This document shows, in pieces, positions 5,044-45,289 of a stretch of DNA of 64,000 nt. Position 1 is the first letter of the stretch, and each line of letters begins with the position of its first letter. Origin of the DNA: an uncultured Oscillospiraceae bacterium (GTDB lineage: Bacteria > Bacillota > Clostridia > Oscillospirales > Oscillospiraceae); assembly GCA_934646005.1 (NCBI GenBank), contig CAKUED010000013.1, positions 1-64,000 of the forward strand. Direction: 5' to 3'. The translations under genes and the position numbers were made by a program. The notes under the pieces were generated by a model. The model was not told where the DNA came from, did not search any database, and saw only the letters and a program-made list of their open reading frames with translations.

Positions 5044-5466
5044 GTAGGGGCGGGGTTCTACCCCGCCCGTGCAGAATGCACCAACCAATACGCACAACGA
5101 CCGGCGACCTCACACGATGTCCGTAGGGGTCGATGCCGCGCTCTCCCCGGCGGCGCGCAATTGCAAAATTGCACGAACCATCGGCGAAAACGCATAACGT
5201 TTTGTAGGGGCGGACGCCTCTGTCCGCCCGTGGGGCAATGGCAAATTTGCCGCAACGTATCATAAAAACGAGTGTGCATCGTGCGGGGAGAGCGCGGCAT
5301 CGACCCCTATAAATATGTACGGATTCGCCAGGGTGCGCCCGTGTTCATGGGTGCGTTCCGCCGGGCGGACAGAGTCGTCCGCCCCTACGGGTGCGTGCGT
5401 GTTTGCATTGGTGCAATCAATTTTGCGGCGGTGTACCGCGCGGGCGGGGCAGAGCCCCGCCCCTAC
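5044..5466. repeat. Composite palindromic array 1, order A-B-C / B'-C'-A'
   Basis: Six hairpin units each starting or ending GTAGGGG/CCCCTAC. They are A 5044-5069 (GGGGCGGGGTTCTACCCCGC), B 5123-5150 (GGGGTCGATGCCGCGCTCTC), C 5204-5230 (GGGGCGGACGCCTCTGTCCG), then inverted B' 5284-5310, C' 5361-5389 and A' 5440-5466. Linkers such as TTGCAAAATTGCAC are also shared with arrays elsewhere in the window. Open frames through it (for example 5272 onwards) are translations of repeat DNA. Confidence 0.85.
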
Positions 5467-5505
5467 GTTACGACGAATTACGGAAAATCTCAAAAACCGA
5501 CGATC

Positions 5506-5717
5506 ACAAAAGCCTCGCAGAGTTTTGCGCCCGCAGGCGCAAAAGCGATTATGATCATTTTTGCCGGCGGCGTGTACGTCGGCAAAAATTCTGCTCACGG
5601 AGCGGAGCGTGGAATTTGCGCTGCGCGCACAAATTCTGCGCGCAGCGCAGTGCAAGTCTGTTCAAACGAAAACCTGTTTTCGTTTGAGAGCGTGTTAAAA
5701 TACTTTTTGACACGCTC
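5506..5717 (+). repeat. Multi-stem dispersed element, copy 1
   Basis: About 210 nt built of successive inverted repeats: TTTGCGCC/GGCGCAAA near 5530, TTTTTGCCGGCG/CGTCGGCAAAAA at about 5560-5592, GAATTTG/CAAATTC with GCGCTGCGCGC/GCGCGCAGCGC at about 5610-5650, TCAAACGAAAA/TTTTCGTTTGA at 5661-5687, and GAGCGTGT/ACACGCTC (5688-5695/5710-5717). A second copy lies inverted at 41355-41580. Several stems differ in sequence between the copies but keep pairing, which suggests selection on structure. Confidence 0.75.
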
Positions 5718-5720
5718 AAG

Positions 5721-5748
5721 AGCCCGGAAAGCAGTTGCTTTCCGGGCT
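5721..5748. terminator. Strong hairpin next to the multi-stem element
   Basis: AGCCCGGAAAGCA and TGCTTTCCGGGCT pair perfectly around a 2-nt loop. There is no T-run directly after it on either strand, so terminator function is uncertain. Confidence 0.35.
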
Positions 5749-6048
5749 TCTGCCGGTGAAGGCGGCGGGCGCGTCCTTGAGATGCCGGCGCACACGCCGC
5801 CGGGAGAGATCTGCCGTGCGCCGCTCCGGCAAAGCGCGGCGGATGCAAACGCTACCGGGCACACGGCGGCATCTGCTGACAGGGCATGGCTTTTGCGCAG
5901 GACGCCCGATCCATGCACCTGCCGGGACATCTGCCCTTTTGTGTATGGAAATCGGCATTCCTGTTTTGGAAAGCTCCGAATCTCTCTGGCATCAGTATGC
6001 CCGCCACGCGCGGCGTCATACGCGGAAAAATTCGCCGTTTTCATGCGA
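5749..6048. other. 300-nt intergenic stretch without a recognised feature
   Basis: GC-rich sequence upstream of the cobamide operon promoter. I looked for the cobalamin riboswitch core (B12 box AGYCAGGAGACCTGCC and GCCACTG) on both strands and did not find it. No credible gene was seen. Confidence 0.5.
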
Positions 6049-6077
6049 TTGACAACCCCCGCCGAAAAGGGTAAGAT
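6049..6077 (+). promoter_or_regulatory. Promoter of the NUDIX-cob operon
   Basis: TTGACA (6049-6054), 17-nt spacer, TAAGAT (6072-6077). It rules out the in-frame ATG at 6076 as the start, because that ATG is inside the -10 element. Confidence 0.75.
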
Positions 6078-6102
6078 GAGAGCGAAAAAGGGGCTGAGAC
6101 AC

Positions 6103-6666
6103 ATGGCTGACACCATCGACCTGCGCGAGCGGACGCTTGCCTCGCGCGAAATTTTTGACGGGAAAATCCTGCACGTTTTTGAGGACACCGTCCGTCTGCC
6201 GAACGGGCAGACGGCGACGCGCGAATACCTGCGCCACGTCGGCGCGGTGTGCATCGTGCCGCTGTTTGAGAACGGCGACGTGCTCATCGAGCGCCAGTTC
6301 CGCTATCCCATCGGGCGCGTGGTCACGGAGATCCCGGCGGGCAAGCTGGACAGTCCCACGGAGGACCGTCTGGCGGCGGCGCAGCGCGAGCTGCACGAGG
6401 AGACGGGCGCGGCGGCAGCCTCGTGGCGCAGTCTGGGGCTGTTTCAGCCCGCGTTTGCGTATTCGGATGAGACGATCGAGATGTTTCTTGCCGAGGGGCT
6501 GACGTTCGGCGCGCAGAAGCTGGATGCGGACGAATTTTTGCAGCTCGACCGCGTCCCGCTGGAAGCGCTCGTGCGGGATATTCTGGACGGCAAAATTCTG
6601 GACGCAAAAACGCAGCTCGCCATCCTCAAAACAAAGCTCCTGCTGGAGCGGGACGGGCGCGCATGA
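6103..6666 (+). CDS. NUDIX hydrolase (ADP-ribose pyrophosphatase type)
   Basis: The 187-aa protein is chosen to start at the ATG at 6103, 9 nt after AAAGGGG and 26 nt after the -10 element. The NUDIX box is intact: GKLDSPTEDRLAAAQRELHEETGA (about residues 85-108; G-x5-E-x7-REUXEE pattern with TED at the start). The order of strands (IVPLFENGDVLIERQFRYP, then EIPAGKLD) is that of ADP-ribose pyrophosphatases, which split ADP-ribose into AMP and ribose-5-phosphate. It heads a tightly packed operon (ATGA overlap with the next gene) leading into cobT-cobU-cobS. Whether it has a role in cobamide metabolism or is only co-transcribed is unknown. Confidence 0.9.
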   Translation: MADTIDLRERTLASREIFDGKILHVFEDTVRLPNGQTATREYLRHVGAVCIVPLFENGDVLIERQFRYPIGRVVTEIPAGKLDSPTEDRLAAAQRELHEETGAAAASWRSLGLFQPAFAYSDETIEMFLAEGLTFGAQKLDADEFLQLDRVPLEALVRDILDGKILDAKTQLAILKTKLLLERDGRA

Positions 6667-7409
6667 AAAAGGAGCGGCTTTTTCTCTCCACCATCGCGGA
6701 CGACGCCGTGCAGACTGCGCGGGAATTTGGGCTCGGCGTGGAGCTGGCGCAGTTCTGCCTGGCGGAGAACATGGACAAGACCCCGCCGGACGTGCAGGCG
6801 AGTCTGGACGCGGCGCTCGAAGTGCCGCGCCGGGTGTTCCACGCGCCGTTTGCGGAGCTGTGCCCCGCCGCCATCGACCCGCTCGTGCGCGAGGTGGCGA
6901 AACGGCGCTTTTTGCAGGCGGCGGCGCTGGCAAAGCGCTATGGCGCGGAAAAAATGGTGGTGCATTCGGGCTTCATCCCGCTCGTCTATTACCCGGAGTG
7001 GTTCGCGCCGCAGTCAGCGGCGTTCTGGCGGGAATTTCTGAACGATGTGGACGGGCTGACGCTGTGCGTCGAAAATGTGATGGAAACGTCGCCGGACGCA
7101 CTGCGGCAGGTCGCGGAGCAGGTGAACGATCCGCGCCTGCGCATCTGTTTCGATGTGGGGCACGCATTCTGTCAGAGCGGCGAGCTTGCGCCGTGGCTGG
7201 ACGCGCTCACGCCGTACAGTTCCCATGTGCACCTGCACAACAATCACGGCACGTCTGACGAGCATCTTGGGTTGCCGGACGGCACGCTCGATATGGCGGC
7301 GGTCATCCGGCAGTTAGAGGCGCTTGCACCGCAGGCGACGTACACGCTGGAGGTGCGCTCCGCGCGCGCGTCGGTCGAGTGGCTTTTGAAAGAGGGACTT
7401 TTATCATGA
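6663..7409 (+). CDS. Sugar phosphate isomerase/epimerase family TIM-barrel protein
   Basis: The 248-aa protein overlaps the NUDIX gene by ATGA and cobT by ATGA. It fits the AP-endonuclease-2/xylose-isomerase-like TIM barrel: MVVHSGF (about residue 99), LCVENVMET (metal-ligand Glu, about 137), RICFDVGHAF (Asp and His), SHVHLHNNHGT (His), and a C-terminal TLEVR Glu. These His/Glu/Asp positions are the usual divalent-metal ligands. The substrate cannot be told from sequence. Its place between the NUDIX gene and cobT suggests a role with ribose or ribosyl phosphates, which is inference only. Confidence 0.8.
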   Translation: MKKERLFLSTIADDAVQTAREFGLGVELAQFCLAENMDKTPPDVQASLDAALEVPRRVFHAPFAELCPAAIDPLVREVAKRRFLQAAALAKRYGAEKMVVHSGFIPLVYYPEWFAPQSAAFWREFLNDVDGLTLCVENVMETSPDALRQVAEQVNDPRLRICFDVGHAFCQSGELAPWLDALTPYSSHVHLHNNHGTSDEHLGLPDGTLDMAAVIRQLEALAPQATYTLEVRSARASVEWLLKEGLLS

Positions 7410-8500
7410 ATCGGGACGCATTTTCCGCGCGGCTCGCCGCCATCCGACCGGCGGACGCGGCGGCGATGGATGCCGCCAGACGGCGGCAGGCGCAGCTTGC
7501 AAAGCCCCCCGGAAGCCTCGGCAAGCTGGAGGACATCTCCATTCAGCTCGCCGGGATCACGGGTCATATTTATAATGAGATTGAAAAGACGCGCATTTAC
7601 GTTCTTGCCGCCGACAACGGCGTGGTGGCGGAGGGTGTTTCCTCCGCACCGCAGTCGGTCACGCGGCAGCAGGCGATCAACCTCACGCGCGGCGTGACGG
7701 GCGCAAGCGCCATCGCGCGCCGGTTCGGCGACGAGCTGGTCGTGGTGGACGTGGGCATCGCGGAGGACTACACCTGCCCGCAGATCGTAAACCGCCGCAT
7801 CGCGCGCGGCACAAAAAATATTGCAAAAGAGCCTGCCATGACCGTGCAGCAGGCGCTCACTGCGCTGGACACCGGCATGACGCTCGCGGCGCAGGCAAAG
7901 CGCGACGGCGTGCAGGCGCTGGGCGTGGGCGAGATGGGCATCGGCAACACCACCACCTCGGCGGCTGTGCTCATGGCACTGACGGGCTGCGCGGTGGAGG
8001 ACGCCGTGGGGCGCGGCGGCGGCGTGACGGAGGAAGCGTTCGCGCGCAAGCGCGCCGTTGTAGCCGGGGCGCTTGCGCGCCTGCACCCGGACGCGGGCGA
8101 TGCAGTCGATGTGCTCGCCAAGGTCGGCGGCTTCGATCTTGCGGCGATGGCGGGCGTGTTCCTCGGCGCGGCGGAGAGCCGCCTGCCGGTGGTGATCGAC
8201 GGATTTATCTCCGTGGTCGCGGCGCTGTGCGCCGTGCGGCTGTGCCCGGCGGCGCGGGACTTTTTATTCGCGTCGCACGGCTCGTTTGAGCGCGGCTACG
8301 CCGTCGCTGCGCAGGCGCTTTCGCTCACGCCAGTGCTGACGCTGGATATGCGGCTGGGCGAGGGCAGCGGCTGCCCGCTGGGGTTTCGTGTGTTGGAGGC
8401 GGCGTGCGCCGCGATGAACGGGATGGCGACGTTTGAGGACGCGCGGATCGACGACGGCTATCTTGCGCCCATCCGCGCAAAGGACTGCTTTACGGTATGA
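7406..8500 (+). CDS. cobT: Nicotinate-nucleotide:dimethylbenzimidazole phosphoribosyltransferase
   Basis: The 364-aa protein activates the lower-ligand base of cobamides by moving phosphoribose from nicotinate mononucleotide to make alpha-ribazole phosphate. Typical features are QLAKPPGSLGKLEDISIQLAGI near the N-terminus, VLAADNGVVAEGVSSAPQ (catalytic and binding loop), GEMGIGNTTTSAAV (about 170-185, base and phosphate binding) and GFISVVAAL. The start at 7406 is fixed by the ATGA overlap with the upstream gene. The product feeds CobS in the same operon. There is no cobC/cobZ phosphatase nearby, so alpha-ribazole phosphate may be used directly or dephosphorylated elsewhere. Confidence 0.97.
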   Translation: MNRDAFSARLAAIRPADAAAMDAARRRQAQLAKPPGSLGKLEDISIQLAGITGHIYNEIEKTRIYVLAADNGVVAEGVSSAPQSVTRQQAINLTRGVTGASAIARRFGDELVVVDVGIAEDYTCPQIVNRRIARGTKNIAKEPAMTVQQALTALDTGMTLAAQAKRDGVQALGVGEMGIGNTTTSAAVLMALTGCAVEDAVGRGGGVTEEAFARKRAVVAGALARLHPDAGDAVDVLAKVGGFDLAAMAGVFLGAAESRLPVVIDGFISVVAALCAVRLCPAARDFLFASHGSFERGYAVAAQALSLTPVLTLDMRLGEGSGCPLGFRVLEAACAAMNGMATFEDARIDDGYLAPIRAKDCFTV

Positions 8501-9036
8501 ATGTTTTTTTATCAGGCGGCTCGAAGAGCGGCAAATCCATGCTGGCGCAGCGCATCGCGCGCGCGATGCAGCCGGGGCGGACACACTATTATCTTGCCAC
8601 GATGATCCCGCATGACGCGGAGGACGACGCGCGCATCACGCGCCACCGCCAAGAGCGCGCGGGCTGGGGCTTTGAAACGGTCGAATGCGGAACACACATC
8701 CTTGCCGCGCTGGAAAAGACCGACCTGGCTGGCGTGTTTTTGCTGGACAGCGTGACGGCACTTTTATCCAACGAGATGTTCCGCGCGGACGGCACGATGG
8801 ACGAAGACGCCGGGGCGCGGCTTGCGCGCGAGCTGACAGAGCTTGCGGAAAAAACGGGCAATTGCGTGTTCGTCTGCGACAATATCTTTGCCGACGCCGG
8901 CGCTTACGGCGAGTGGACCGAGCGCTACCGGCAGGCGCTGGGCGCGCTCGGCGCGGCGCTGTGCCGCGTGTGCGACGCTGCGGGCGAGGTCTGCTGCGGC
9001 GTGCCGGTTTGGCACAAGGGAGGATGGGCAGAATGA
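8497..9036 (+). CDS. cobU: Bifunctional adenosylcobinamide kinase/guanylyltransferase
   Basis: The 179-aa protein phosphorylates adenosylcobinamide and transfers GMP to give AdoCbi-GDP. It starts with a P-loop, FLSGGSKSGKSMLAQRIA, and has the second conserved loop HRQERAGWGFETVE (the GMP-accepting His lies in this segment in CobU) and LLDSVTALLSNEMF. Its length matches the family (about 180 aa). It overlaps cobT (ATGA) and cobS (ATGA), indicating translational coupling. Confidence 0.96.
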   Translation: MNVFLSGGSKSGKSMLAQRIARAMQPGRTHYYLATMIPHDAEDDARITRHRQERAGWGFETVECGTHILAALEKTDLAGVFLLDSVTALLSNEMFRADGTMDEDAGARLARELTELAEKTGNCVFVCDNIFADAGAYGEWTERYRQALGALGAALCRVCDAAGEVCCGVPVWHKGGWAE

Positions 9037-9767
9037 AAAAGCAATGGCGCGCGCTGTGCATGGCGTGGGGGATGTTCTGCATCGTCCCATGCCCCAGCCG
9101 CCGGTGGGACGAGGCGGCGCGAAGCTGGATGATCGTCTGGTTTCCGCTCGTGGGGCTGCTGGCGGGCGGCGTATGGCGGCTGCTGGCGCTGCTGCCCGGC
9201 TCGATGCTCACGGCGGCGCTGCTGTGCGCCGCGCCGTTCGTTGTGACGGGCTTTTTGCATCTGGATGGCTATATGGACTGCTGCGACGCCATTCTTTCCC
9301 GCCGGGAGCTTGCCGTGCGGCAGAAAATTCTCAAGGACTCGCACGTCGGCGCATTCGCCGTGATCGGGCTGGCAATTTTATTTTTGCTGCAATTCGCGGC
9401 GTTTTGCACGCTGAATGTGACAAACAGCGCCCTGGCGCTGCTGCTGCTTCCTGTGTGCACGCGCGCGGCGGCGGGGCTGTGTGTGAGCACGATGCGCCCG
9501 ATGGGCACGAGCCAGTACGGCGGCGACTTCGCGCGCGAGAAAAAAACGCCGCAGTGCGTGTGCCTTGCGCTGTGGCTCGCGCTTGCGCTCGCTGCGGGGT
9601 GGTTTTTCTGCGGCTTGCGGGCGCTTGCGCTCGGCGCGGGAGCGCTCTGCGTGTGGCTGGCGGCGCTGTACGGCAAGAGCGAGCTCGGCGGGATGTCCGG
9701 CGACGTGTCCGGCTTTGCGCTGACGCTGGGCGAGCTGGCGGGTCTTTTATGCCTGTGTCTGTTTTAA
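9033..9767 (+). CDS. cobS: Adenosylcobinamide-GDP ribazoletransferase (cobalamin synthase)
   Basis: The 244-aa integral membrane enzyme joins AdoCbi-GDP with alpha-ribazole (phosphate), the last step of cobamide assembly. Signatures are PSRRWDEAARSW near the N-terminus, HLDGYMDCCDAILS with the metal-binding Asp cluster (about residues 75-90), LKDSHVGAFAVIG, and several hydrophobic helices to the C-terminus. The true start is the ATG at 9033 overlapping the cobU stop; upstream extension of the frame is shadow. Located in the cytoplasmic membrane. Confidence 0.96.
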   Translation: MKKQWRALCMAWGMFCIVPCPSRRWDEAARSWMIVWFPLVGLLAGGVWRLLALLPGSMLTAALLCAAPFVVTGFLHLDGYMDCCDAILSRRELAVRQKILKDSHVGAFAVIGLAILFLLQFAAFCTLNVTNSALALLLLPVCTRAAAGLCVSTMRPMGTSQYGGDFAREKKTPQCVCLALWLALALAAGWFFCGLRALALGAGALCVWLAALYGKSELGGMSGDVSGFALTLGELAGLLCLCLF

Positions 9768-9779
9768 GGAGGAGCTTCG

Positions 9780-10145
9780 ATGATCCTGATCGTGGGCGGC
9801 GCGTATCAAAATAAGCGCACCTTTGCCATGGCGCGTTTCGGGCTTACGCCGGAGGATTTCTGCGACTGCGCGCAGAGCGCACCCGATTTTTCCAAACCGG
9901 CTCTGTGCCACCTGGAGCAGTATGTACTGCGCTGCGTGCGCGAGGTTCAGGACGAGGCGGCGCTGCTGAATGCGCCGCTGGATGATAAAATTCTGATTTT
10001 TGACGATATTTCCTGCGGCGTTGTGCCGCTGGACGCGGAAACGCGCGCGTGGCGCGAACGCTCTGGGCGGCTCGCGGCGGCGCTGGCGCAGCGGGCGGAC
10101 GAGGTCTGGCGTGTGTTTTTCGGACTGGGCGAGCGGATAAAATGA
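9780..10145 (+). CDS. Short CobU-like protein with altered P-loop
   Basis: The 121-aa protein follows cobS after 12 nt with its own AAGGAGGAGC site. It starts MILIVGGAYQNKRTFA, a P-loop-like GGAxxxK loop lacking the GKS/T ending. It ends with DDISCGVVPLDAETRAWRERSG...RADEVWRVFFGLGERIK, which corresponds to the C-terminal part of CobU (VGMGIVP...RFRDLAGRLN...ADEVYLVVAGLPLRLK). The region that carries the GMP-accepting His in CobU is short or missing. By position it belongs to cobamide salvage. It could be a partner or regulator of CobU, or a kinase-only form. Short CobU-like proteins of this type occur in other Clostridia, but I know of no assigned function. Confidence 0.75.
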   Translation: MILIVGGAYQNKRTFAMARFGLTPEDFCDCAQSAPDFSKPALCHLEQYVLRCVREVQDEAALLNAPLDDKILIFDDISCGVVPLDAETRAWRERSGRLAAALAQRADEVWRVFFGLGERIK

Positions 10146-10163
10146 ATCGGAAAAACCATCCGC

Positions 10164-10192
10164 TTGCATAAATCGCGCGGATATGCTACACT
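10164..10192 (+). promoter_or_regulatory. Promoter upstream of the toroid-SLH gene
   Basis: TTGCAT (10164-10169), 17-nt spacer, TACACT (10187-10192). It implies that the toroid/DUF4430 pair can be expressed independently of the cob genes. Confidence 0.6.
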
Positions 10193-10251
10193 GCTGTAAA
10201 TACTATAAAAATCATTTTTTGCATGGAACTTCCGAAGGGAGGCTCATATCA

Positions 10252-11805
10252 ATGAAGAAAAAACTGCTTGCCATTTTGCTGGCGGCGGGCATTTTGCTCA
10301 CGCTCTGCCCCGCGGCGCTTGCTGCGGAGATCCCGGCGGACGCGATCGCGGGCGCGCAGAAGTATCTGCTGGAGTCCATGCCGCGCGGCACGTCCGGCGG
10401 CGCGGCGGACCATGTGATGTTCACACTCGTGCGCAGCGGCGCGGCGCTCCCGGAGGGGTACGCGCTGCAATATTACGAGAGCGTGACGGCGGAGCTGGCG
10501 GAAAACGGCAGCCCCGCCGGGCGCGGGCGCTCGGGCGAGTTTGCCCGCGCGGCGCTGGCGCTGCGCGCCATGGGAAAAGACCCTGCGAACGTCTGCGGGC
10601 AGAACCTTTTGACGGCGCTGGCGGATTTTGACGCGTGCGCGCAGACAGGTCTGCCGGGCGTTCTGACGGCGCTGCGCACGCTCGACTGCGCAAATTACGA
10701 CATTCCCGCGGTGGACGGCGTTGCCACCCCCGCGACGCGCGAGCTGTATCTCAGCACGATCCTCAACGCGCAGCTTCCCGACGGCGGCTGGGCGCTGCAC
10801 GGCGGCAAGGCGGACGCCGCGACGACCGCGTCGGTCTTACAGGCGCTCGCGCGCTACCGCGACCAGCAGCAGGTGGCGAACGCCGTCGCGCTCGGCGTGG
10901 AGCGGCTGTCGGCGCTGCAGCAGGACGACGGCGGCTATACCGTCTGGTCAACGCCCTCATCCGAGCCGACGGCGCAGGTGCTGCTTGCGCTGTGCGCGCT
11001 GGACATCGCGGTGGACGACGAACGCTTTACGAAGAACGGCGCGACCGCGCTCGACAAGCTCCTGAGCTATCGCGATGCGTCCGGCGGCTTTTTGGGAACG
11101 CTGCACCCCAGCCTCACCGCCACCTATCAGGCGCTTCAGGCGCTGTGCGCCGTGCAGCGTGCGCAGGGCACGCAGGCGGAGCTGTATGACCTGCGCGACG
11201 TGACGCTGACCGCCGAGCCGGAGCTTGCCTCGGGTGTGAAGGCGGCACAGCTTCAGAAAAACGGCGCGGTGTTTTCCGACACCGAAGCCCATGAAAACCG
11301 CGACGCCATCAGCATCCTCGGCTCGTTCGGCATCATCAGCGGCGTAGGCGGCGGGCGCTTCAGCCCCGACAGCACCATGACCCGCGCGCAGTTCGCCAAG
11401 ATCGTTGTATGCGCACTGGGACTGGAGGCACAGTACCGCGGCACGTTTGCCGACGTCGCCGAGAGCGCGTGGTACGCCCCCTATGTGGACACGGCGGCGG
11501 CGTATGGCATCGTGCGCGGCGTGGGCGACGGCAAGTTTAACCCCGACAGCAGCATCACCCGGCAGGAATCCGCCGTGATGCTCGCGCGCGCGGCGGCGCT
11601 GTGCGGCTTTGACACCGCCGTGGAGGACACCTCCGCCGTGCCGGACACGGTGTCCGACTGGGCAAAGAGCGGCGTGGCGTTCTGCCTGAAAAATGAGATC
11701 ATGACCACCGCACAGGCAGAGCAGCCGACTGCCTCCGTGCTGCGCTGCGAGATCGCGCAGATGCTGTGTAACCTCCTGATGCAGACAGCGATTTTGAATT
11801 TTTAA
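10252..11805 (+). CDS. Secreted alpha/alpha-toroid (prenyltransferase/squalene-cyclase-like repeat) protein with SLH domains
   Basis: The 517-aa precursor starts at 10252 behind GGGAGG. A signal peptide (MKKKLLAILLAAGILLTLCP...ALAAE, cut about residue 23) is followed by a helical-repeat domain to about residue 310. That domain has QxxDGG-type turns: AQLPDGGWALHGGKADAATT, LQQDDGGYTVWST, and RDASGGFLGT. These are the repeats of terpenoid-cyclase-fold toroids, the fold that also forms the cobalamin-binding alpha domain of intrinsic factor and transcobalamin. From about 345 there are SLH modules (LGSFGIISGVGGGRFSPDST...TRAQFAKI, FADVAESAWYAPYVDTAA...ITRQESAVML), which attach proteins to secondary wall polymers. 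It lies directly after the cobamide genes and before a DUF4430 lipoprotein. Enzymatic prenyl or squalene activity is unlikely for a secreted SLH protein. Confidence 0.82.
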   Translation: MKKKLLAILLAAGILLTLCPAALAAEIPADAIAGAQKYLLESMPRGTSGGAADHVMFTLVRSGAALPEGYALQYYESVTAELAENGSPAGRGRSGEFARAALALRAMGKDPANVCGQNLLTALADFDACAQTGLPGVLTALRTLDCANYDIPAVDGVATPATRELYLSTILNAQLPDGGWALHGGKADAATTASVLQALARYRDQQQVANAVALGVERLSALQQDDGGYTVWSTPSSEPTAQVLLALCALDIAVDDERFTKNGATALDKLLSYRDASGGFLGTLHPSLTATYQALQALCAVQRAQGTQAELYDLRDVTLTAEPELASGVKAAQLQKNGAVFSDTEAHENRDAISILGSFGIISGVGGGRFSPDSTMTRAQFAKIVVCALGLEAQYRGTFADVAESAWYAPYVDTAAAYGIVRGVGDGKFNPDSSITRQESAVMLARAAALCGFDTAVEDTSAVPDTVSDWAKSGVAFCLKNEIMTTAQAEQPTASVLRCEIAQMLCNLLMQTAILNF

Positions 11806-11816
11806 GGAGAGCTATC

Positions 11817-12278
11817 ATGAAAAAACGTATTTTTGCGGCGCTTTGCGCGCTGCTGCTGATCCTGAGCCTGTCCGCGTGCGCCGCGAAAAAGACGACCTGC
11901 ACGCTGACGATCGCCTGTGAAACGGCGCTGACAAGCGCCGAGCTGGACGCGGAAACGGTCGCGGCGCTGCCGTCCGATGGCTATCTGCTGCCCGCGACCG
12001 AGGTCGAATTTACCGACGGCGAGAGCGTGCTGGAGGTCTTACGCCGCACCGCGCAGGAGCACGCTCTGACGCTGGACGTGGTGGACGGCGAATATCCGTA
12101 TGTAAACGCCATCGGTGAGCTTGCGGGCGGCAGCGCCGGTCCGATGTCCGGCTGGCTGTTCAGCGTGAACGGCGAATATCCGTCCGTGGGCGTCGCCGAT
12201 ATTAAGGTGCAGGCGGGCGACGCCATCGTCTTTTCCTACACCTGCGACGGCGGGGCAGACCTTGGAATTGTCTGGTGA
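11817..12278 (+). CDS. DUF4430 lipoprotein (transcobalamin C-domain-like)
   Basis: The 153-aa precursor has a lipobox (LLLILSLSACAAKK, Cys at about residue 21). The single C-terminal domain ends GWLFSVNGEYPSVGVADIKV-QAGDAIVFSYT, the hallmark of DUF4430. The same fold forms the C-terminal beta domain of intrinsic factor and transcobalamin, which closes over the cobalamin. It follows the toroid-SLH gene by 11 nt with AAGGAGA, so the two are cotranscribed. Inference: the toroid and this protein act together as a two-piece surface binder of cobamides or of another small ligand. A transporter for the ligand is not encoded in the window. Confidence 0.8.
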   Translation: MKKRIFAALCALLLILSLSACAAKKTTCTLTIACETALTSAELDAETVAALPSDGYLLPATEVEFTDGESVLEVLRRTAQEHALTLDVVDGEYPYVNAIGELAGGSAGPMSGWLFSVNGEYPSVGVADIKVQAGDAIVFSYTCDGGADLGIVW

Positions 12279-12298
12279 ACTGTTTTAGAAACTGAATC

Positions 12299-12340
12299 GC
12301 GCCGGTGTATAAGAATTTGCTCTTTACACCGGCGCTTTTT
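12299..12340 (+). terminator. Terminator after the DUF4430 gene
   Basis: GCGCCGGTGTA (12299-12309) pairs with TACACCGGCGC (12325-12335), followed by TTTTT. Confidence 0.85.
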
Positions 12341-12350
12341 GTGTTAAAAT
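12323..12350 (+). promoter_or_regulatory. Probable promoter of lpdA
   Basis: TTTACA (12323-12328), 16-nt spacer, TAAAAT (12345-12350). The -35 element overlaps the 3' arm of the preceding terminator. Confidence 0.5.
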
Positions 12351-12396
12351 AGAGACAAACACTATACTAGGAAAGTTTGCGGGAGGAACTACATAC

Positions 12397-13770
12397 ATGG
12401 ATACTTTTGATGTCGTGGTCCTGGGCGGCGGCCCGGGCGGCTATCTGTGCGCCGAACGCGCGGCGCAGGGCGGACTGACGGCGGCGGTCGTGGAGCAGCG
12501 GGCGCTGGGCGGAACGTGCCTGAACGAGGGCTGCGTCCCCACCAAGAGCCTTTTGTACTGCGCCAAGCAGTACGCCGCCGCGCAGCACGGCGCGGATTAC
12601 GGCGTGCACGCGGAGAACGTCTCGTTTGACCACGCGGCGGTCATCGACCGCAAGAACAAGGTCGTCAAAACGCTCGTCTCCGGCGTCGGCTTCACGATGA
12701 AGTCCAACAAGGTCAAGGTCTACACCGCGTCCGCGAAGGTCCTCGGCAAGAACGCAGCGGGGCTGTTTGAGGTGGATGCAGGCGGTACGACCATCGCCGG
12801 TAAGCGCCTCGTCGTTGCCACCGGCTCGGTCGCGTCCGTCCCGCCCATTCCGGGCGTGAAGGAAGGGCTCGCCTCCGGCTTTGTGATGACGAACCGCGAA
12901 ATTCTCGACCTGCGCGAAGTGCCCAAGACGCTCGTGTGCATCGGCGGCGGCGTCATCGGTCTGGAAATGGCGTGCTATTTTGCCACCATCGGCGTCAAGG
13001 TCATCGTCATCGAAATGATGTCCAAGATCGCAGGTCCGACCGATCTCGAAATTTGCGACATCCTCATGAAGACCTATAAAAAGCTCGGCATGGAGTTCTA
13101 TCTGAACGCGGGCGTCAAGAAGGTCGAAGCCGGCAGCGTCACCTATGAGGACGCGTCGGGTCTGCACACCGTCGCGTGCGACCGCGTGCTCCTGTCCGCC
13201 GGCCGCCGCGCCAACATCGAGGGGCTGGAGCTGGAAGAGAAGCTGGGCGTCGCCACCGAGCGCGGCAAGGTCCTCACCGACGAGCACCTGTGCACGAACG
13301 TCGAGGGTGTGTACGCCGTGGGCGACTGCAACGGCAAGCTCATGCTCGCGCACACCGCCTACCGTGAGGCGGAGGTCGCCGTGAACCATATGCGCGGCAT
13401 CAAGGATCATATCGACTACAGCATCATCCCCTCCGTCATCTACACGACCCCTGAAGTCGCCTGCGTCGGCGAGACCGAGCAGAGCGCGAAGGACAAGGGT
13501 CTGGACGTGAAGGTCGTCAAAGCGCCCATGATGGCGTCGGGTCGCTTCGTCGCTGAAAACCTGAAGGGCGACGGCTTCTGCAAGCTCATCTATGATGTCA
13601 AGAAGCGCGAGCTCGTCGGCGTGCACATCATCGGCAGCTACGCCTCCGAGATGATCTACGGCGCGGCGGCGATGGTCTACTCCAAGCTGCCCGTGCAGCA
13701 TCTGGACAAGATCGTGTTCCCGCACCCCACCGTCTGCGAGGTCATCCGCGAAGCGCTGTTCATGCTGTAA
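12397..13770 (+). CDS. lpdA: Dihydrolipoyl dehydrogenase
   Basis: The 457-aa flavoprotein oxidises dihydrolipoyl groups with NAD+. It has the FAD-binding VVLGGGPGGYLCAERAAQGG (residues ~6-25), the redox disulfide GGTCLNEGCVPTKS (C43 and C48 approximately), NAD-binding CIGGGVIGLEMACYFATIG (about 185-203), VYAVGDCNGKLMLAHTA, and the C-terminal HPTVCEVIREA. The family's HPT(x)E catalytic pair appears as HPTVCE, as expected. No pyruvate-dehydrogenase E1/E2 or glycine-cleavage gene is adjacent, so its partner complex is elsewhere. GGGAGGAAC precedes the ATG. Confidence 0.95.
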   Translation: MDTFDVVVLGGGPGGYLCAERAAQGGLTAAVVEQRALGGTCLNEGCVPTKSLLYCAKQYAAAQHGADYGVHAENVSFDHAAVIDRKNKVVKTLVSGVGFTMKSNKVKVYTASAKVLGKNAAGLFEVDAGGTTIAGKRLVVATGSVASVPPIPGVKEGLASGFVMTNREILDLREVPKTLVCIGGGVIGLEMACYFATIGVKVIVIEMMSKIAGPTDLEICDILMKTYKKLGMEFYLNAGVKKVEAGSVTYEDASGLHTVACDRVLLSAGRRANIEGLELEEKLGVATERGKVLTDEHLCTNVEGVYAVGDCNGKLMLAHTAYREAEVAVNHMRGIKDHIDYSIIPSVIYTTPEVACVGETEQSAKDKGLDVKVVKAPMMASGRFVAENLKGDGFCKLIYDVKKRELVGVHIIGSYASEMIYGAAAMVYSKLPVQHLDKIVFPHPTVCEVIREALFML

Positions 13771-40138: not shown

Positions 40139-41356
40139 ATGAAAAAGATCCTTGCACTCATCCTTGTATGCTCCCTGGCGCTGTGCCTGCTGGCAGGCTG
40201 CGCGGGCGGCAAGCCCGCGGCTGACGCGTCCAGCGACGCTTCCGCCGATGCCGCCGCCTCCGAAAGCGGCAACAAAGTCGTAAAGATCGGCGTGTACGAG
40301 CCGCAGACCGGCGACAATGGCGCGGGCGGCAAGCAGGAAATTCTGGGTATGCAGTATGCAAACTATGTGCAGCCCACCGTCGAGATCGGCGGCGAGACCT
40401 ATGACGTCAAGCTCGAGATCGTCGATAACCGCACCACTGCCGAAAACGGCCCGTCCGCAGCGGCGGAGCTTGTGAACCGCGACGTGTCCATCGTGCTCGG
40501 CTCTTACGGCTCGGGCGTGTCCACTGCCGGCGGCAAGGTCTTTGCCGAAGCGGGTGTGCCCGCCATCGGCGTCTCCTGCACCAACCCGCAGGTCACAGCG
40601 GAATGCGACGTCTACTTCCGCATCTGCTTCCTCGATCCGTTCCAGGGCACGGTCCTTGCCAACTACGCGTGGAACTCCGGCGTGACCACCGCCTACACGC
40701 TGGCGATGCTCGGCTCTGACTATGACCAGGGTCTGGTCTACTACTTCAAGCAGGCGTTTGAGGCTCTGGGCGGCACGGTCATTTCCGAGGACTTCCCGGA
40801 GGGCACTGCCAACTTCGTCTCCTACATCAATAACGCGCAGTCCGCGGGCGCGGGCGTCATCATGGCGCCGGTCTCCACCAACTACGCGCAGCTCATCATC
40901 GAGGCTGCCTCCGCACAGGGCTATACGGGCGAGCTGCTCGGCTCTGACACATGGGACAACAACATGGTCGTCGAGTCCGCCAAGGGCAAGGACGTGAGCA
41001 TCAAGGTCACCACCTTCTATCAGGAGGGCGGCGCGCCGGAATTTGACTCCGGCATCAAGGAGTGGATGAACGCCAACGCCGATGCACTGACCAACAACGG
41101 CGGCAACGACATGGTCGCGGCTGTGACCGCGATGGGCTATGACGCCTACTTCACCGCGCTTGAGGCGCTGAAGGCTGCCGGCTCTGCCGCGCCTGCCGAC
41201 GTGCTGAAGGCTCTGCCGTCCGTCACCTACGAAGGCGTGTCCGGCAAGATCGCCTTTGACGACATCGGCGATGCCAAGCGCGACACCGCGTACATCAAGA
41301 CCGCGAACACCACCGACGGCGTTTGGGAGTTCTACGCGGTGCAGGGCGTCGAATGA
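40139..41356 (+). CDS. livK: Branched-chain amino acid ABC transporter substrate-binding lipoprotein
   Basis: The 405-aa precursor has the lipobox LALCLLAGCAGG (Cys about residue 21) and an Ala/Ser/Asp linker. The LivK-type periplasmic-binding fold follows: VVKIGVYEPQTGDNGAGGKQE, LEIVDNRTTAENGPSAAAEL, VLGSYGSGVSTAGGKVFAEAGVPAIG, and ALKAAGSAAPADVLKALPSV. The ligand loop resembles LivJ/LivK (Leu/Ile/Val, sometimes other amino acids or amides). It is the first gene of the complete livKHMGF set; strong expression from its own promoter, with partial stop at the hairpins after it, is expected. Confidence 0.93.
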   Translation: MKKILALILVCSLALCLLAGCAGGKPAADASSDASADAAASESGNKVVKIGVYEPQTGDNGAGGKQEILGMQYANYVQPTVEIGGETYDVKLEIVDNRTTAENGPSAAAELVNRDVSIVLGSYGSGVSTAGGKVFAEAGVPAIGVSCTNPQVTAECDVYFRICFLDPFQGTVLANYAWNSGVTTAYTLAMLGSDYDQGLVYYFKQAFEALGGTVISEDFPEGTANFVSYINNAQSAGAGVIMAPVSTNYAQLIIEAASAQGYTGELLGSDTWDNNMVVESAKGKDVSIKVTTFYQEGGAPEFDSGIKEWMNANADALTNNGGNDMVAAVTAMGYDAYFTALEALKAAGSAAPADVLKALPSVTYEGVSGKIAFDDIGDAKRDTAYIKTANTTDGVWEFYAVQGVE

Positions 41357-41580
41357 ATTGTGTCATTTTCATGACACAATTCTCAAACGAAAACCGCTTC
41401 GCTGGGTTTTCGTTTGAACAGGATTGCACTGCGTTGCGCGCATAATTTTTGCGCAAGCACAAAAATTCTACACTCCACTCCGTGAGCAGAATTTTTGCCG
41501 ACGCGCAGGTCGCCGGCAAAAATGATTCCAATCATTTTCGCCGCTGCGGCGGCGAAACTCTGCGAGGCTTTTCGTAGCTT
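41355..41580 (-). repeat. Multi-stem dispersed element, copy 2 (inverted relative to copy 1)
   Basis: On the minus strand: AAAAGCCTCGCAGAGTTTCG, stems TTTCGCCGC/GCGGCGAAA and TTTTTGCCGGCG/CGTCGGCAAAAA, the shared ATTCTGCTCACGGAG, TCAAACGAAAACC/GGTTTTCGTTTGA, and a last stem GAATTGTGTCAT/ATGACACAATTC abutting the livK stop. It matches copy 1 (5506-5717) along its whole length, with paired substitutions in the first and last stems. Confidence 0.75.
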
Positions 41581-41589
41581 TTCGGACTT

Positions 41590-41609
41590 GGCGGGGCGTT
41601 TGCCCCGCC
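41590..41609. terminator. Hairpin in the livK-livH gap
   Basis: GGCGGGGC-GTTT-GCCCCGCC, perfect stem, no T-run right after it. May stabilise the livK mRNA or attenuate transcription. Confidence 0.4.
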
Positions 41610-41637
41610 AGGTCTTGCATAATTTTATTGAACTGGA

Positions 41638-41706
41638 ATGATAACAGAGAATCCGCGCGGCGGATTTAGTCTTTTGCGCGATCGGGCGCGGGGATTCTCC
41701 GTTATC
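41638..41706 (+). promoter_or_regulatory. Long-range stem before livH
   Basis: GATAACAGAGAATCC (about 41639-41653) can pair with GGATTCTCCGTTATC (about 41691-41705). The loop contains GCGCGGCGG and GCGCGATCGGGCGCG. It sits 30 nt before the livH start. Attenuation or mRNA processing is possible; no known riboswitch recognised. Confidence 0.4.
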
Positions 41707-41734
41707 CCATACGATCTTCAGGAGGACTCCGCTT

Positions 41735-42610
41735 ATGCAAGGACTGCTTCCCTACATTATTAACGGCATTTCCGCCGGCGGTCAGTACGCGCTGATCGCC
41801 ATCGGCTATACGCTGGTCTACGGCATCCTGCGGCTCATCAACTTCGCCCACGGCGATGTGTTCATGGTCGCGGGGCTCATCATGGTGTACGCCTCGGCGT
41901 CCATGCCGATGTACATCGCGCTGCCGCTGGTCATCGTCGCCACGGCGCTGCTGGGCTTTCTCATCGAGCGCGCGGCGTATAAGCCTCTGCGCACCGCGCC
42001 GCGGATGTCGCTCATGATCTCCGCCATCGGCGTGAGCTATCTCATCCAGAACCTCGCGTTCTACATCACCGGCGGTCAGCCGCAGCCGGTCACGCATCCC
42101 ATCCCCTGGATCTCCGACACCATCAGCGTCCTCGGTGCGTCCACCAAGCGCGTCACGCTGGTCACGCCGGTGCTGACGATCGGGCTCGTGCTGCTGCTCG
42201 TGTGGCTGACGAAAAAGACGAAGGTCGGTCTCGCCATGCGCGCCGCGTCCAAGGATTTTGAAACGGCGCAGCTCATGGGCGTGAAGATCAACTCCGTCAT
42301 CTCCTTTACATTCGTCATCGGCTCGGCGCTGGCAGCCGTCGGCGCGATGCTGTACTTTACGAACTACCCCAACGTCGCCATCGGCTCGGGCAGTATGCCG
42401 GGACTCAAGGCGTTCGTCGCAGCGGTGTTCGGCGGCATCGGCTCGATCCCCGGCGCGGTCGTGGGCGCGTTCATCATCGGTCTGTGCGAGGAGCTCATCA
42501 AGGCGATCCAGCCCACGTTCTCCGACGCGTTCACGTTCGTCATCCTCATCGTGGTGCTGTGCGTCAAGCCCACGGGTCTGTTCGGTGAAAAAGTCACCGA
42601 CAAGGTGTAA
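41735..42610 (+). CDS. livH: Branched-chain amino acid ABC transporter permease LivH
   Basis: The 291-aa membrane protein has about eight helices and the LivH signature near its start, NGISAGGQYALIAIGYTLVYGILRLINFAHGDVFMVAG, plus MRAASKDFETAQLMGVKINSVISFTFVIGSALAAVGA, the EAA-like cytoplasmic loop that contacts the ATPases. It pairs with LivM to form the channel. AGGAGGAC precedes the ATG. livM follows after 12 nt. Confidence 0.95.
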   Translation: MQGLLPYIINGISAGGQYALIAIGYTLVYGILRLINFAHGDVFMVAGLIMVYASASMPMYIALPLVIVATALLGFLIERAAYKPLRTAPRMSLMISAIGVSYLIQNLAFYITGGQPQPVTHPIPWISDTISVLGASTKRVTLVTPVLTIGLVLLLVWLTKKTKVGLAMRAASKDFETAQLMGVKINSVISFTFVIGSALAAVGAMLYFTNYPNVAIGSGSMPGLKAFVAAVFGGIGSIPGAVVGAFIIGLCEELIKAIQPTFSDAFTFVILIVVLCVKPTGLFGEKVTDKV

Positions 42611-42622
42611 GGAGGCTTTGGC

Positions 42623-43732
42623 ATGAAGAAAAACAATCATCGTGAAAGCCTCATTCTGGCGCTCATTCTGCTCATCGTGCTGGCAGCGGCAATTTTCCTC
42701 GACGCGAAGCTCCCCAGCTATCACATCGCCATCAAGGTCATCAAAAAGGCGTGCGTGTATTCGCTCGTCGCCGTGTCCATGAACCTGCTCAACGGCTTTA
42801 CGGGTCTGTTCTCCCTCGGTCAGGCGGGCTTTATGCTGCTCGGCGCGTATGCCTACGCCATTTTGTCCATCCCCGTTGCCAAGCGCGCGGGCGTGTATCA
42901 GTATTTTGAGGGCGGCATCGTCAAATTCTCCCTGCCGGAGGTCTTTTCCGGCATGTTCGGCGAATCGGTCGGTCCGATCGTCGGGATGCTCCTCGCGCTG
43001 CTCATCGGCGGCATGATCGCGGGTCTGGTCGCGTATCTCATCGGTCTGCCGGTGCTGCGCCTGCGCTCGGACTACCTCGCCATCGCAACGCTCGGCTTTG
43101 CCGAAATTCTGCGCGCGCTCATCCAGTGGAGCGCCCTCGGTCCTCTTACGAATGCGTCGAACCTGCTGCAAAACTATCCGGAGCTTGGCGGCGCGACGGC
43201 ATATCTCATCCTCATCGCCGTATTCATCGGCATGATCCTGCTATTGGTCAACTCGACCTACGGACGGGCGTTCAAGGCGATCCGCGACGACGAGGTCGCG
43301 GCGGAGGCGATGGGCATCAACCTCGCGCACCACAAGCGCGCGGCGTTTATCATCTCGTCCTTCTTCGCCGGCGTCGGCGGCGGGATGCTGGCGATGTACA
43401 TGGGCACGGTGCAGGCGCTGTCGTTTAAGAGCACGATGACGTATGAGATCCTGCTCATCGTGGTCATCGGCGGCATCGGCTCGCTCACCGGGTCGATCCT
43501 CACGAGCTTTTTGTATGTGGCCAGCCTCGAGTGGCTGCTGCGCGGTCTGGACTCCGGGAAATTCCTCGGCATCGAAGCCCCCGGCGTGTTCAAAAACGGC
43601 TTCCGTATGGCGGTCGTGTCGGTCATCATCATGGTGGTCGTGCTGTTCTTCCGCAAGGGCATCATGGGTGACCGCGAGCTGACCGACCTGCTGCGCAGGC
43701 GGGGCAGACGGAAAGGAGATCGTGTGGAATGA
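42623..43732 (+). CDS. livM: Branched-chain amino acid ABC transporter permease LivM
   Basis: The 369-aa membrane protein has family motifs MNLLNGFTGLFSLGQAGFMLLGAYAYA (about 52-78), LPVLRLRSDYLAIATLGFAEILRALI and RAFKAIRDDEVAAEAMGINLAHHKRAAFIISSFFAGVGGG (EAA-like loop). The C-terminal tail (RKGIMGDRELTDLLRRRGRRKG) is basic and cytoplasmic. It overlaps livG by 4 nt (ATGA). Confidence 0.95.
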   Translation: MKKNNHRESLILALILLIVLAAAIFLDAKLPSYHIAIKVIKKACVYSLVAVSMNLLNGFTGLFSLGQAGFMLLGAYAYAILSIPVAKRAGVYQYFEGGIVKFSLPEVFSGMFGESVGPIVGMLLALLIGGMIAGLVAYLIGLPVLRLRSDYLAIATLGFAEILRALIQWSALGPLTNASNLLQNYPELGGATAYLILIAVFIGMILLLVNSTYGRAFKAIRDDEVAAEAMGINLAHHKRAAFIISSFFAGVGGGMLAMYMGTVQALSFKSTMTYEILLIVVIGGIGSLTGSILTSFLYVASLEWLLRGLDSGKFLGIEAPGVFKNGFRMAVVSVIIMVVVLFFRKGIMGDRELTDLLRRRGRRKGDRVE

Positions 43733-44568
43733 AGCCTGTTCTGAAACTCGAAAATGTGACCATGCAGTTTGGCGGCGTCATCGCGGTCAATAACCTCTCG
43801 ATGGAGATAAACGAAGGCGAGATCGTCGCGCTCATCGGTCCGAACGGCGCGGGCAAGACCACGGCGTTCAACTGCGTCACCGGCGTGTACGAGCCGACCA
43901 ACGGCAAAATTGAGTATTGCGGCGAGACCATCGCCGAAAATTTCCCGCGCGGCAAGCTGAAGCGCCTGTACGCGGGCGAGCATAACGGGCTGTACACCAA
44001 AACCGTCTCGCTCACGCCCGACGCCATCACGCGCCGCGGCATCGCGCGCACGTTCCAGAATATCCGGCTGTTTTCGTCCATGACGGCGTTTGAAAACGTC
44101 CTGACCGCCATGCACGTCCGCCGCACGAGCAACCTCTTCACCGCCACGTTCCGCCTGAATCATAAAGAAGAGCAGGCGCAGCGCGAGCGCGCGCTGGAGC
44201 TGTTGAAGATCGTCGGTCTGGAAAATGAAAAGGACGAGCTGGCGACAAGCCTGCCCTACGGCAAGCAGCGCCGTCTGGAGATCGCCCGGGCTCTTGCGAC
44301 CGAGCCGAAGCTGCTGCTGCTCGACGAGCCGGCAGCCGGTATGAACCCGCAGGAAACGGAAGAGCTGACGGCGTTCATCCGCCGCATCCGCGACGAATTT
44401 GGTCTGACGGTGTTTTTGATCGAGCACCATATGGATCTCGTCATGGACATTTCCGACCGCATTTACGTCATCGACTTCGGCAAGCTGATCGCGGCGGGTG
44501 TCCCGGCGGACATTCAGAACGATCAGCGCGTCATCGACGCATATCTGGGGGTGGACGAAGATGAATGA
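43729..44568 (+). CDS. livG: Branched-chain amino acid ABC transporter ATP-binding protein LivG
   Basis: The 279-aa ATPase has Walker A GPNGAGKTTAFNC (about 36-48), Q-loop RTFQNIRLFSSMTAFEN, signature SLPYGKQRRLEIARAL (LPYGxQR variant usual for LivG), Walker B LLLLDEPAAGMNPQE and switch His IEHHMD. It carries the LivG-type insertion after Walker A that contacts the permeases. Overlaps livM by 4 nt and livF by 8 nt. Confidence 0.97.
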   Translation: MKPVLKLENVTMQFGGVIAVNNLSMEINEGEIVALIGPNGAGKTTAFNCVTGVYEPTNGKIEYCGETIAENFPRGKLKRLYAGEHNGLYTKTVSLTPDAITRRGIARTFQNIRLFSSMTAFENVLTAMHVRRTSNLFTATFRLNHKEEQAQRERALELLKIVGLENEKDELATSLPYGKQRRLEIARALATEPKLLLLDEPAAGMNPQETEELTAFIRRIRDEFGLTVFLIEHHMDLVMDISDRIYVIDFGKLIAAGVPADIQNDQRVIDAYLGVDEDE

Positions 44569-45289
44569 TCCAAGAAATATTCTGGAGATCCGCGGCTTGG
44601 TCGTCTCCTACGGCGGCATTGAAGCCGTGCGCGGCATCGATCTGGATGTGCCCAAGGGCAAGATCGTCACGCTCATCGGCTCAAACGGCGCGGGAAAATC
44701 GACCACGCTCAAAACCATCGCCGGGCTCGTGAAGCCCAAGAGTGGCACAGTGGAAATGGAGGGCACGGTGATTACTGGAAAGTCCTCCGACTTTATCGTC
44801 TCGCAGGGCGTCACGCTCGTGCCGGAGGGACGCCGCGTGTTCCCGAACCTCACAGTGGAGGAAAACCTGCGCATCGGCGCATATTTGCGCAAGGACAGCC
44901 TGAAGGACGATCTTGCGAACGTTTACAGCCTGTTCCCGCGCCTCAAAGAGCGCGAATGGCAGCTTGCCGGCACGCTCTCCGGCGGAGAGCAGCAGATGCT
45001 CGCGGTGGGCAGAGCGCTCATGGCGCGCCCGAAGCTCATCATGATGGACGAGCCGTCGCTCGGTCTTGCACCGATCGTCGTCAAGGGTATTTTCGACATC
45101 ATCCGCGAAATTAACCGTCAGGGCATCACGGTGCTGCTCATCGAGCAGAACGCGAACATGGCGCTCAAGATCGCGGACCTTGCCTACGTCATCCAGAACG
45201 GCACGATCCTCATGCAGGGCGCCGGTCAGGAGCTGCTGGAAAACGAAGAAGTCAAAGCCGCCTACCTCGGCAGCGCAAAGAAGAAATAA
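44561..45289 (+). CDS. livF: Branched-chain amino acid ABC transporter ATP-binding protein LivF
   Basis: The 242-aa ATPase starts at 44561 inside the end of livG. Walker A GSNGAGKSTTLKTI, Q-loop/LivF loop VPEGRRVFPNLTVEENL, signature LSGGEQQMLAVGRALMARP, Walker B LIMMDEPSLGLAP, and switch region IEQNANMAL (Gln in place of His, usual for LivF). It is the last gene of livKHMGF. Confidence 0.97.
   Translation: MNDPRNILEIRGLVVSYGGIEAVRGIDLDVPKGKIVTLIGSNGAGKSTTLKTIAGLVKPKSGTVEMEGTVITGKSSDFIVSQGVTLVPEGRRVFPNLTVEENLRIGAYLRKDSLKDDLANVYSLFPRLKEREWQLAGTLSGGEQQMLAVGRALMARPKLIMMDEPSLGLAPIVVKGIFDIIREINRQGITVLLIEQNANMALKIADLAYVIQNGTILMQGAGQELLENEEVKAAYLGSAKKK

Follow-up and report, generated by a model that had tools for sequence, protein, structure and literature searches.

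The animal carriers of vitamin B12 (intrinsic factor, transcobalamin and haptocorrin) combine a toroid and a beta domain on one soluble polypeptide, which enters cells by receptor endocytosis. This paper describes a pair of adjacent genes behind a cobamide salvage gene run in an uncultured Oscillospiraceae bacterium (contig CAKUED010000013.1, positions 1 to 64,000; this whole stretch of 64,000 nucleotides is called the window). Here the same two folds are predicted on two separate open reading frames (ORFs), whose products appear to be surface-anchored, and relatives of the pair are associated with a membrane importer.

The pair is probably a B12 trap, of a class that was predicted by Burroughs et al. 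(2007; PMC1796856). In the parts of that paper drawn on here, the SLBB superfamily is named, fusions to toroids, a location at the cell surface and operons with CbiO/CbiQ are noted, scavenging of B12 or its precursors is proposed, and the animal carriers are suggested to have been acquired from low-GC Gram-positives. The transcobalamin-like SLBB clade of that study shares with the system considered here an exported DUF4430-type beta-grasp, the post-helix hairpin, ties to toroids and transporter genes of the CbiO/CbiQ type. It differs in that SLBB proteins are described there as pairs or as fusions to a toroid. The term 'S-layer' is absent from the text, and neither linkage to cobT/U/S nor cobalamin riboswitches nor a CbrT-type S component were found in the parts drawn on here. 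What appears to be new is a split form that is anchored by SLH repeats and lies in a salvage operon, together with its support from riboswitches, CbrT and cob genes. The initial annotation of this DNA, which likened the pair to the animal carriers, is upheld in part; its general idea was already contained in the 2007 paper.

ECF-CbrT of Lactobacillus delbrueckii (PMC5997447), an energy-coupling factor (ECF) transporter for cobalamin and cobinamide with the deposited structure 6FNP, has the S component to which those fused or linked to toroid-DUF4430 operons are closest in the PDB. In the portion of that publication used here, CbrT itself binds and an external capture protein is not described, whereas the window holds the putative capture proteins and no local transporter; neither the operon of EcfT, EcfA and CbrT-like S genes nor the cobalamin riboswitch of a CbrT-type import operon was found in it. 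Surface capture of B12 by gut bacteria is likewise known from BtuG and BtuH of Bacteroidetes (PMC8941943, PMC6977713), but BtuG is a beta-propeller with the outer-membrane protein BtuB as its partner (PMC6977713), as far as the excerpts of these papers go. On the capture of scarce cobamides outside the membrane by Gram-positive gut bacteria, the accessible portion of the open-licence literature yielded the 2007 prediction and the CbrT transporter, but no capture protein tested by experiment and in particular no toroid-DUF4430 cobamide binder; the locus offers small, concrete candidate proteins.

The toroid/SLH and DUF4430 proteins

ORF and Pfam analysis confirmed that a toroid/SLH protein and a DUF4430 protein follow the cob genes, as the initial annotation had observed. 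The two genes are separate ORFs with a gap of 11 nt, and they form a single same-strand run with the genes for a TIM-barrel protein, the complete cobamide salvage trio cobT, cobU and cobS (Pfam), and CobU':

10252..11805, + strand: exported alpha/alpha toroid + SLH protein, 517 aa (Pfam, AlphaFold2 [AF2] model, fold matches)
11817..12278, + strand: DUF4430 lipoprotein with transcobalamin-type SLBB domain, 153 aa (Pfam, lipobox, AF2)
6663..7409, + strand: TIM-barrel protein of the AP_endonuc_2 family, conserved cobT partner (PF01261, 1.8e-20)
7406..8500, + strand: cobT, lower-ligand base phosphoribosyltransferase (PF02277, 1.4e-125; TIGR03160 above cut-off)
8497..9036, + strand: cobU, adenosylcobinamide kinase/guanylyltransferase (PF02283, 2.7e-29)
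9033..9767, + strand: cobS, cobamide synthase (PF02654, 1.4e-40; TIGR00317 slightly under cut-off)
9780..10145, + strand: CobU', short CobU paralogue with altered P-loop (PF02283, 3.1e-8, C-terminal half)
12299..12340, + strand: intrinsic-terminator-like hairpin and U-run 3' of the DUF4430 gene (fold of 12285-12350)

The DUF4430 protein (PF14478, 52.1 bits against a cut-off of 23.8) is predicted to adopt the beta-domain fold of transcobalamin and intrinsic factor, as had been proposed for it: its AF2 model shows a beta-grasp core with a post-helix hairpin (helix 71-81; strands 86-89, 95-99 and 112-117), and its top structural matches are the beta domains of B12 carriers. Of 21 aligned rows, 20 carry a lipobox pattern, and the window protein is one of these.

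The other protein was likewise modelled as a toroid, in agreement with the first description. Pfam places the toroid domain at about residues 26-308 and a three-part SLH region, with repeats of the wall-binding fold, at about residues 340-514. In the AF2 model (predicted local distance difference test score 92), the stretch from residue 29 to residue 305 holds 12 helices when 119-130 is taken as one, which corresponds to a six-plus-six toroid. This fold is common to cyclases and sugar epimerases, and in structure comparison many enzymes match it. Transcobalamin is not among the 50 structural matches listed for the toroid model (VIA list); Foldseek returned some transcobalamin rows (E ~1e-4 to 1e-3, TM score 0.31-0.38 of the query), with cyclases equal or better. 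In comparisons with the PDB, the likeness of both window proteins to the animal carriers appears at the level of fold only. Neither frame is interrupted, both signal sequences are clean, and six homologues at 61-98% identity measure 517-519 aa. Viral contigs gave one match to the toroid/SLH protein, confined to residues 341-512 in the SLH part.

Related toroid loci: transporters, riboswitches and salvage genes

A toroid-domain scan of genome contigs yielded 20 loci. One of these loci belongs to an order from which 245 genomes were searched, and toroid matches were obtained in 87 of them. Down the list of these 87 genomes, 40 higher-scoring loci (L052-L091, from 39 genomes; L and G numbers denote loci and genomes) were taken, with G035, G233 and several second matches within the same score range omitted. 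A DUF4430-type domain was fused or adjacent to the toroid at 39 of the 40 loci, same-strand ECF genes lay at most 6 kb away at 33, and cob genes were present at one (in G230); the first 20 loci gave 16, 14 and 1, respectively. The ECF counts are matches to the genes of one locus, by which a general ATP-binding cassette (ABC) gene could be counted and diverged ones could escape. The transporter at L002 comprises an EcfT of the CbiQ type and an 871-aa protein in which two ATPases are fused with an S component. For 14 aligned S components of this sort the best PDB relative was CbrT (6fnp, E 7.8e-20), followed by a riboflavin uptake protein (4.4e-4).

Scanning of all 40 loci with Rfam revealed 25 cobalamin riboswitches, distributed over 21 loci. 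Every one lies on the toroid strand and either precedes a toroid gene or overlaps the beginning of that gene's longest ORF. The distance is at most 2.3 kb for 21 of them, and the remaining four are 3.2-8.8 kb upstream. The four other riboswitches (two c-di-AMP, one lysine, one FMN) occupy the opposite strand or lie downstream. When the 39 genomes were searched separately, with stricter filters by which weak matches were lost, 26 of 51 above-cut-off cobalamin riboswitches fell inside the toroid stretches, which represent ~0.8% of the bases; statistics on this placement, calculated for uniform positions and rounded genome sizes, serve as a guide only. In 14 of the 25 genomes with any cobalamin riboswitch, all of theirs are inside these stretches. 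This placement is the strongest evidence that the toroid family serves cobamide uptake. Through its association with riboswitches and CbrT, what had been a domain prediction becomes, in the order sampled, a well-supported uptake system, and the tie to cobamides that had been drawn for the window is borne out in its relatives by CbrT-like transporters, cobalamin riboswitches and cob salvage genes. The cob-linked loci scanned and the window display the opposite pattern to the 21 of 40 loci, as they are without a cobalamin riboswitch; this includes L060, the sole cob-linked locus among L052-L091.

Toroid and CobS positions were compared in 300 genomes of one family, with closeness defined as same strand and within 7 kb, a limit fixed after the coordinates were seen. 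Both genes occur in 54 genomes and are close in six of these (G230, G279, G476, G445, G392 and G486); six or more close pairs have a P of 1e-6 to 6e-4 under random placement, varying with toroid number. In the order set, which overlaps in part with the family set, they are close in 2 of 16 genomes with both (G001, G230). Homologues of the toroid gene are therefore mostly found away from cob genes, an outcome that the initial annotation had held to be unfavourable, but the transporters beside them are mostly CbrT-like and not unrelated ones.

Altogether, seven genomes combine the toroid with cobT/U/S genes, and G002 is an eighth case if its two contigs adjoin (141-nt exact end overlap), of which the second (L092) carries cobS and a phosphatase gene and no cobT or cobU. 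G279 has the gene order nearest to that of the window, Nudix (by eye)-TIM-CobT-CobU-CobS-CobU'-phosphatase-toroid/SLH-EcfT-EcfAAS; in G230 the order is TIM-CobT-CobU-CobS-CobU'-phosphatase-SLBB/LysM-toroid-DUF4430-EcfT-EcfAAS; in G001 and G445 the trap and transporter genes come first. A six-frame search of 10 cob-related loci and the window (11 sources) added a phosphatase in L002, EcfT in L106 and L108, CobS in L108 and a TIM-barrel protein in L109. A histidine phosphatase occupies the position expected for CobC in all eight cob-linked genomes by similarity (Pfam His_Phos_1 in the three tested), and was not found in the window by the six-frame search with the relatives' genes. On a quick toroid tree, in which one L110 sequence was included twice, cob linkage requires at least five changes.

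Two of the cob-linked genomes, G445 and G392 (L108 and L109), encode a single chain with the toroid followed by DUF4430, the order of the animal carriers. These natural fusions beside cob genes support the notion that the two window proteins act together, and since human transcobalamin shows the domain order of these cob-linked relatives, the proposed bacterial origin of the animal carriers becomes testable.

A second small exported SLBB-like protein is encoded ahead of the toroid gene in five cob-linked loci (L060:10639-11577, L107:13400-14119, L108:1466-2545, L109:14689-15570 and L110:11880-12569). Pfam on three of the five gave no DUF4430 call; the L060 protein has a LysM domain.

Proposed capture mechanism and competing explanations

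The two genes probably represent a two-polypeptide version of the transcobalamin/intrinsic-factor trap that would feed a CbrT-type ECF importer, presumably encoded at an unlinked position in this organism. In view of the DUF4430, ECF/CbrT, riboswitch and cob associations of its relatives, the most likely ligands of the pair are cobamides or cobinamide. The toroid half would be fixed in the cell wall through its SLH repeats and the DUF4430 beta-grasp half on the membrane through its lipid anchor. As in the animal carriers, the central cavity of the toroid and the DUF4430 hairpin could close on an extracellular corrinoid, either cobinamide or a complete cobamide, and the separate anchors would bring the loaded complex to the face of the membrane, where the corrinoid may be passed to the importer. 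CobU, CobS and CobT would then attach, complete or exchange the lower ligand inside the cell. A more specific version is put forward tentatively: a two-anchor relay in which the halves close on the corrinoid only where wall meets membrane, load the CbrT-type importer and feed lower-ligand remodelling by the same operon. In this version the animal carriers might be secreted descendants of bacterial one-chain forms of the L108 and L109 type, cut from the transporter.

Several observations weigh against a trap of this kind. The wall-bound toroid and the membrane-bound partner may fail to meet; terpene cyclases match the toroid fold better than transcobalamin does, and PDB profile searches with either protein yielded no B12 carrier chain. 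No cobalamin riboswitch was detected in the window at the Rfam gathering threshold, nor at E <= 1 in 5300-12500, nor in any of the eight cob-linked loci scanned (L002, L003, L060 and L106-L110; L092 not included). The six-frame search with the relatives' genes gave no EcfT or EcfS match in the window; its sole ABC matches are located at 43.7-45.3 kb and were assigned by eye to a LIV-type set, and BtuFCD was not seen on inspection by eye. In G476 the trap is accompanied by an ATPase gene and cob genes, but EcfT is missing from the vicinity and a search of the genome found no S gene of the CbrT type. G279 and G486 are without a separate DUF4430 gene beside the toroid gene, although G486 has another SLBB-like protein. 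Besides the distance of most homologues from cob genes, co-occurrence of toroid and CobS was not above chance (family odds ratio 0.91, p 0.72; order odds ratio 0.71, p 0.34). Finally, the corrin-ring genes CbiC and CbiD are found elsewhere in three of the eight cob-linked genomes (G230, G279, G486), so the earlier suggestion that capture explains an operon without corrin-ring genes does not follow.

It is conceivable, if on the whole unlikely, that the pair traps cobinamide or a lower-ligand piece (alpha-ribazole, benzimidazole) and not finished cobamides, as CobU, CobS and CobT use such pieces. The linked enzymes form the assembly branch, a phosphatase stands in the CobC position in the eight cob-linked genomes, though not in the window, and CbrT itself also takes cobinamide, according to the part of its description cited above (PMC5997447). 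On the other hand, the toroid-DUF4430-ECF set is found under cobalamin riboswitches at many loci without cob genes, for which reason cobamides appear to be what the family in general is adapted to.

That the pair no longer feeds an importer in this lineage, the ECF genes being lost and the proteins serving as sink, store or relic, is rather improbable. ECF genes do follow the toroid genes in G279 and G230, whereas the window has none and shows a terminator-like hairpin there (-26.4 kcal/mol, z -5.7), which is absent from the listing of a consensus terminator scan. Against decay stand the intact frames, the clean signal sequences and the nearly constant length of the six homologues. In G486, moreover, the cob-linked toroid and SLBB-like genes also have no adjacent ECF genes, and a CbrT-like gene lies on another contig.

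Binding of some other ligand (glycan, peptide or another cofactor), with an incidental position behind the cob genes, has less still to recommend it. SLBB domains bind diverse ligands, a point also raised by a reviewer in the part of Burroughs et al. (2007; PMC1796856) used here, many enzymes match alpha/alpha toroids, and most homologues are not beside cob genes; but cob linkage changed repeatedly on the toroid tree, of the 29 riboswitches at the 40 loci, 25 respond to the cobalamin model and share the strand of the toroid, and the transporter resembles CbrT. A role as a squalene-hopene or terpene cyclase is hardly credible for an exported toroid protein that carries SLH repeats, and terpene cyclase function was rejected, as DxDD, the class II cyclase motif, occurs in none of 34 aligned rows.

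Other genes of the run and of related operons

The LIV-type gene set mentioned above, assigned by eye to a branched-chain amino acid ABC transporter, extends over 40139-45289 of the window. At L002, a very large surface protein with PQQ-propeller, cadherin-like and dockerin domains (L002:5263-9810) is encoded beside MoxR-DUF58-transglutaminase genes, and several toroid operons (L002, L052, L053, L054, L056) are headed by surface proteins of such size, in which DUF4430-like or SLH regions occur.

The TIM-barrel gene stands ahead of cobT in the window and in eight other loci: its homologue directly precedes CobT in L002, L060, L094 and L106-L110, and is not on the G002 contig L092. The AP_endonuc_2 protein is possibly an unrecognised member of the cobamide pathway. 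CobU' homologues are present in the same eight loci. Their P-loop reads GGAYQNKR in the window and GGAYQGK or similar in several relatives, while the full-length CobU alongside keeps GGxKxGKS; CobU' is perhaps a non-catalytic partner.
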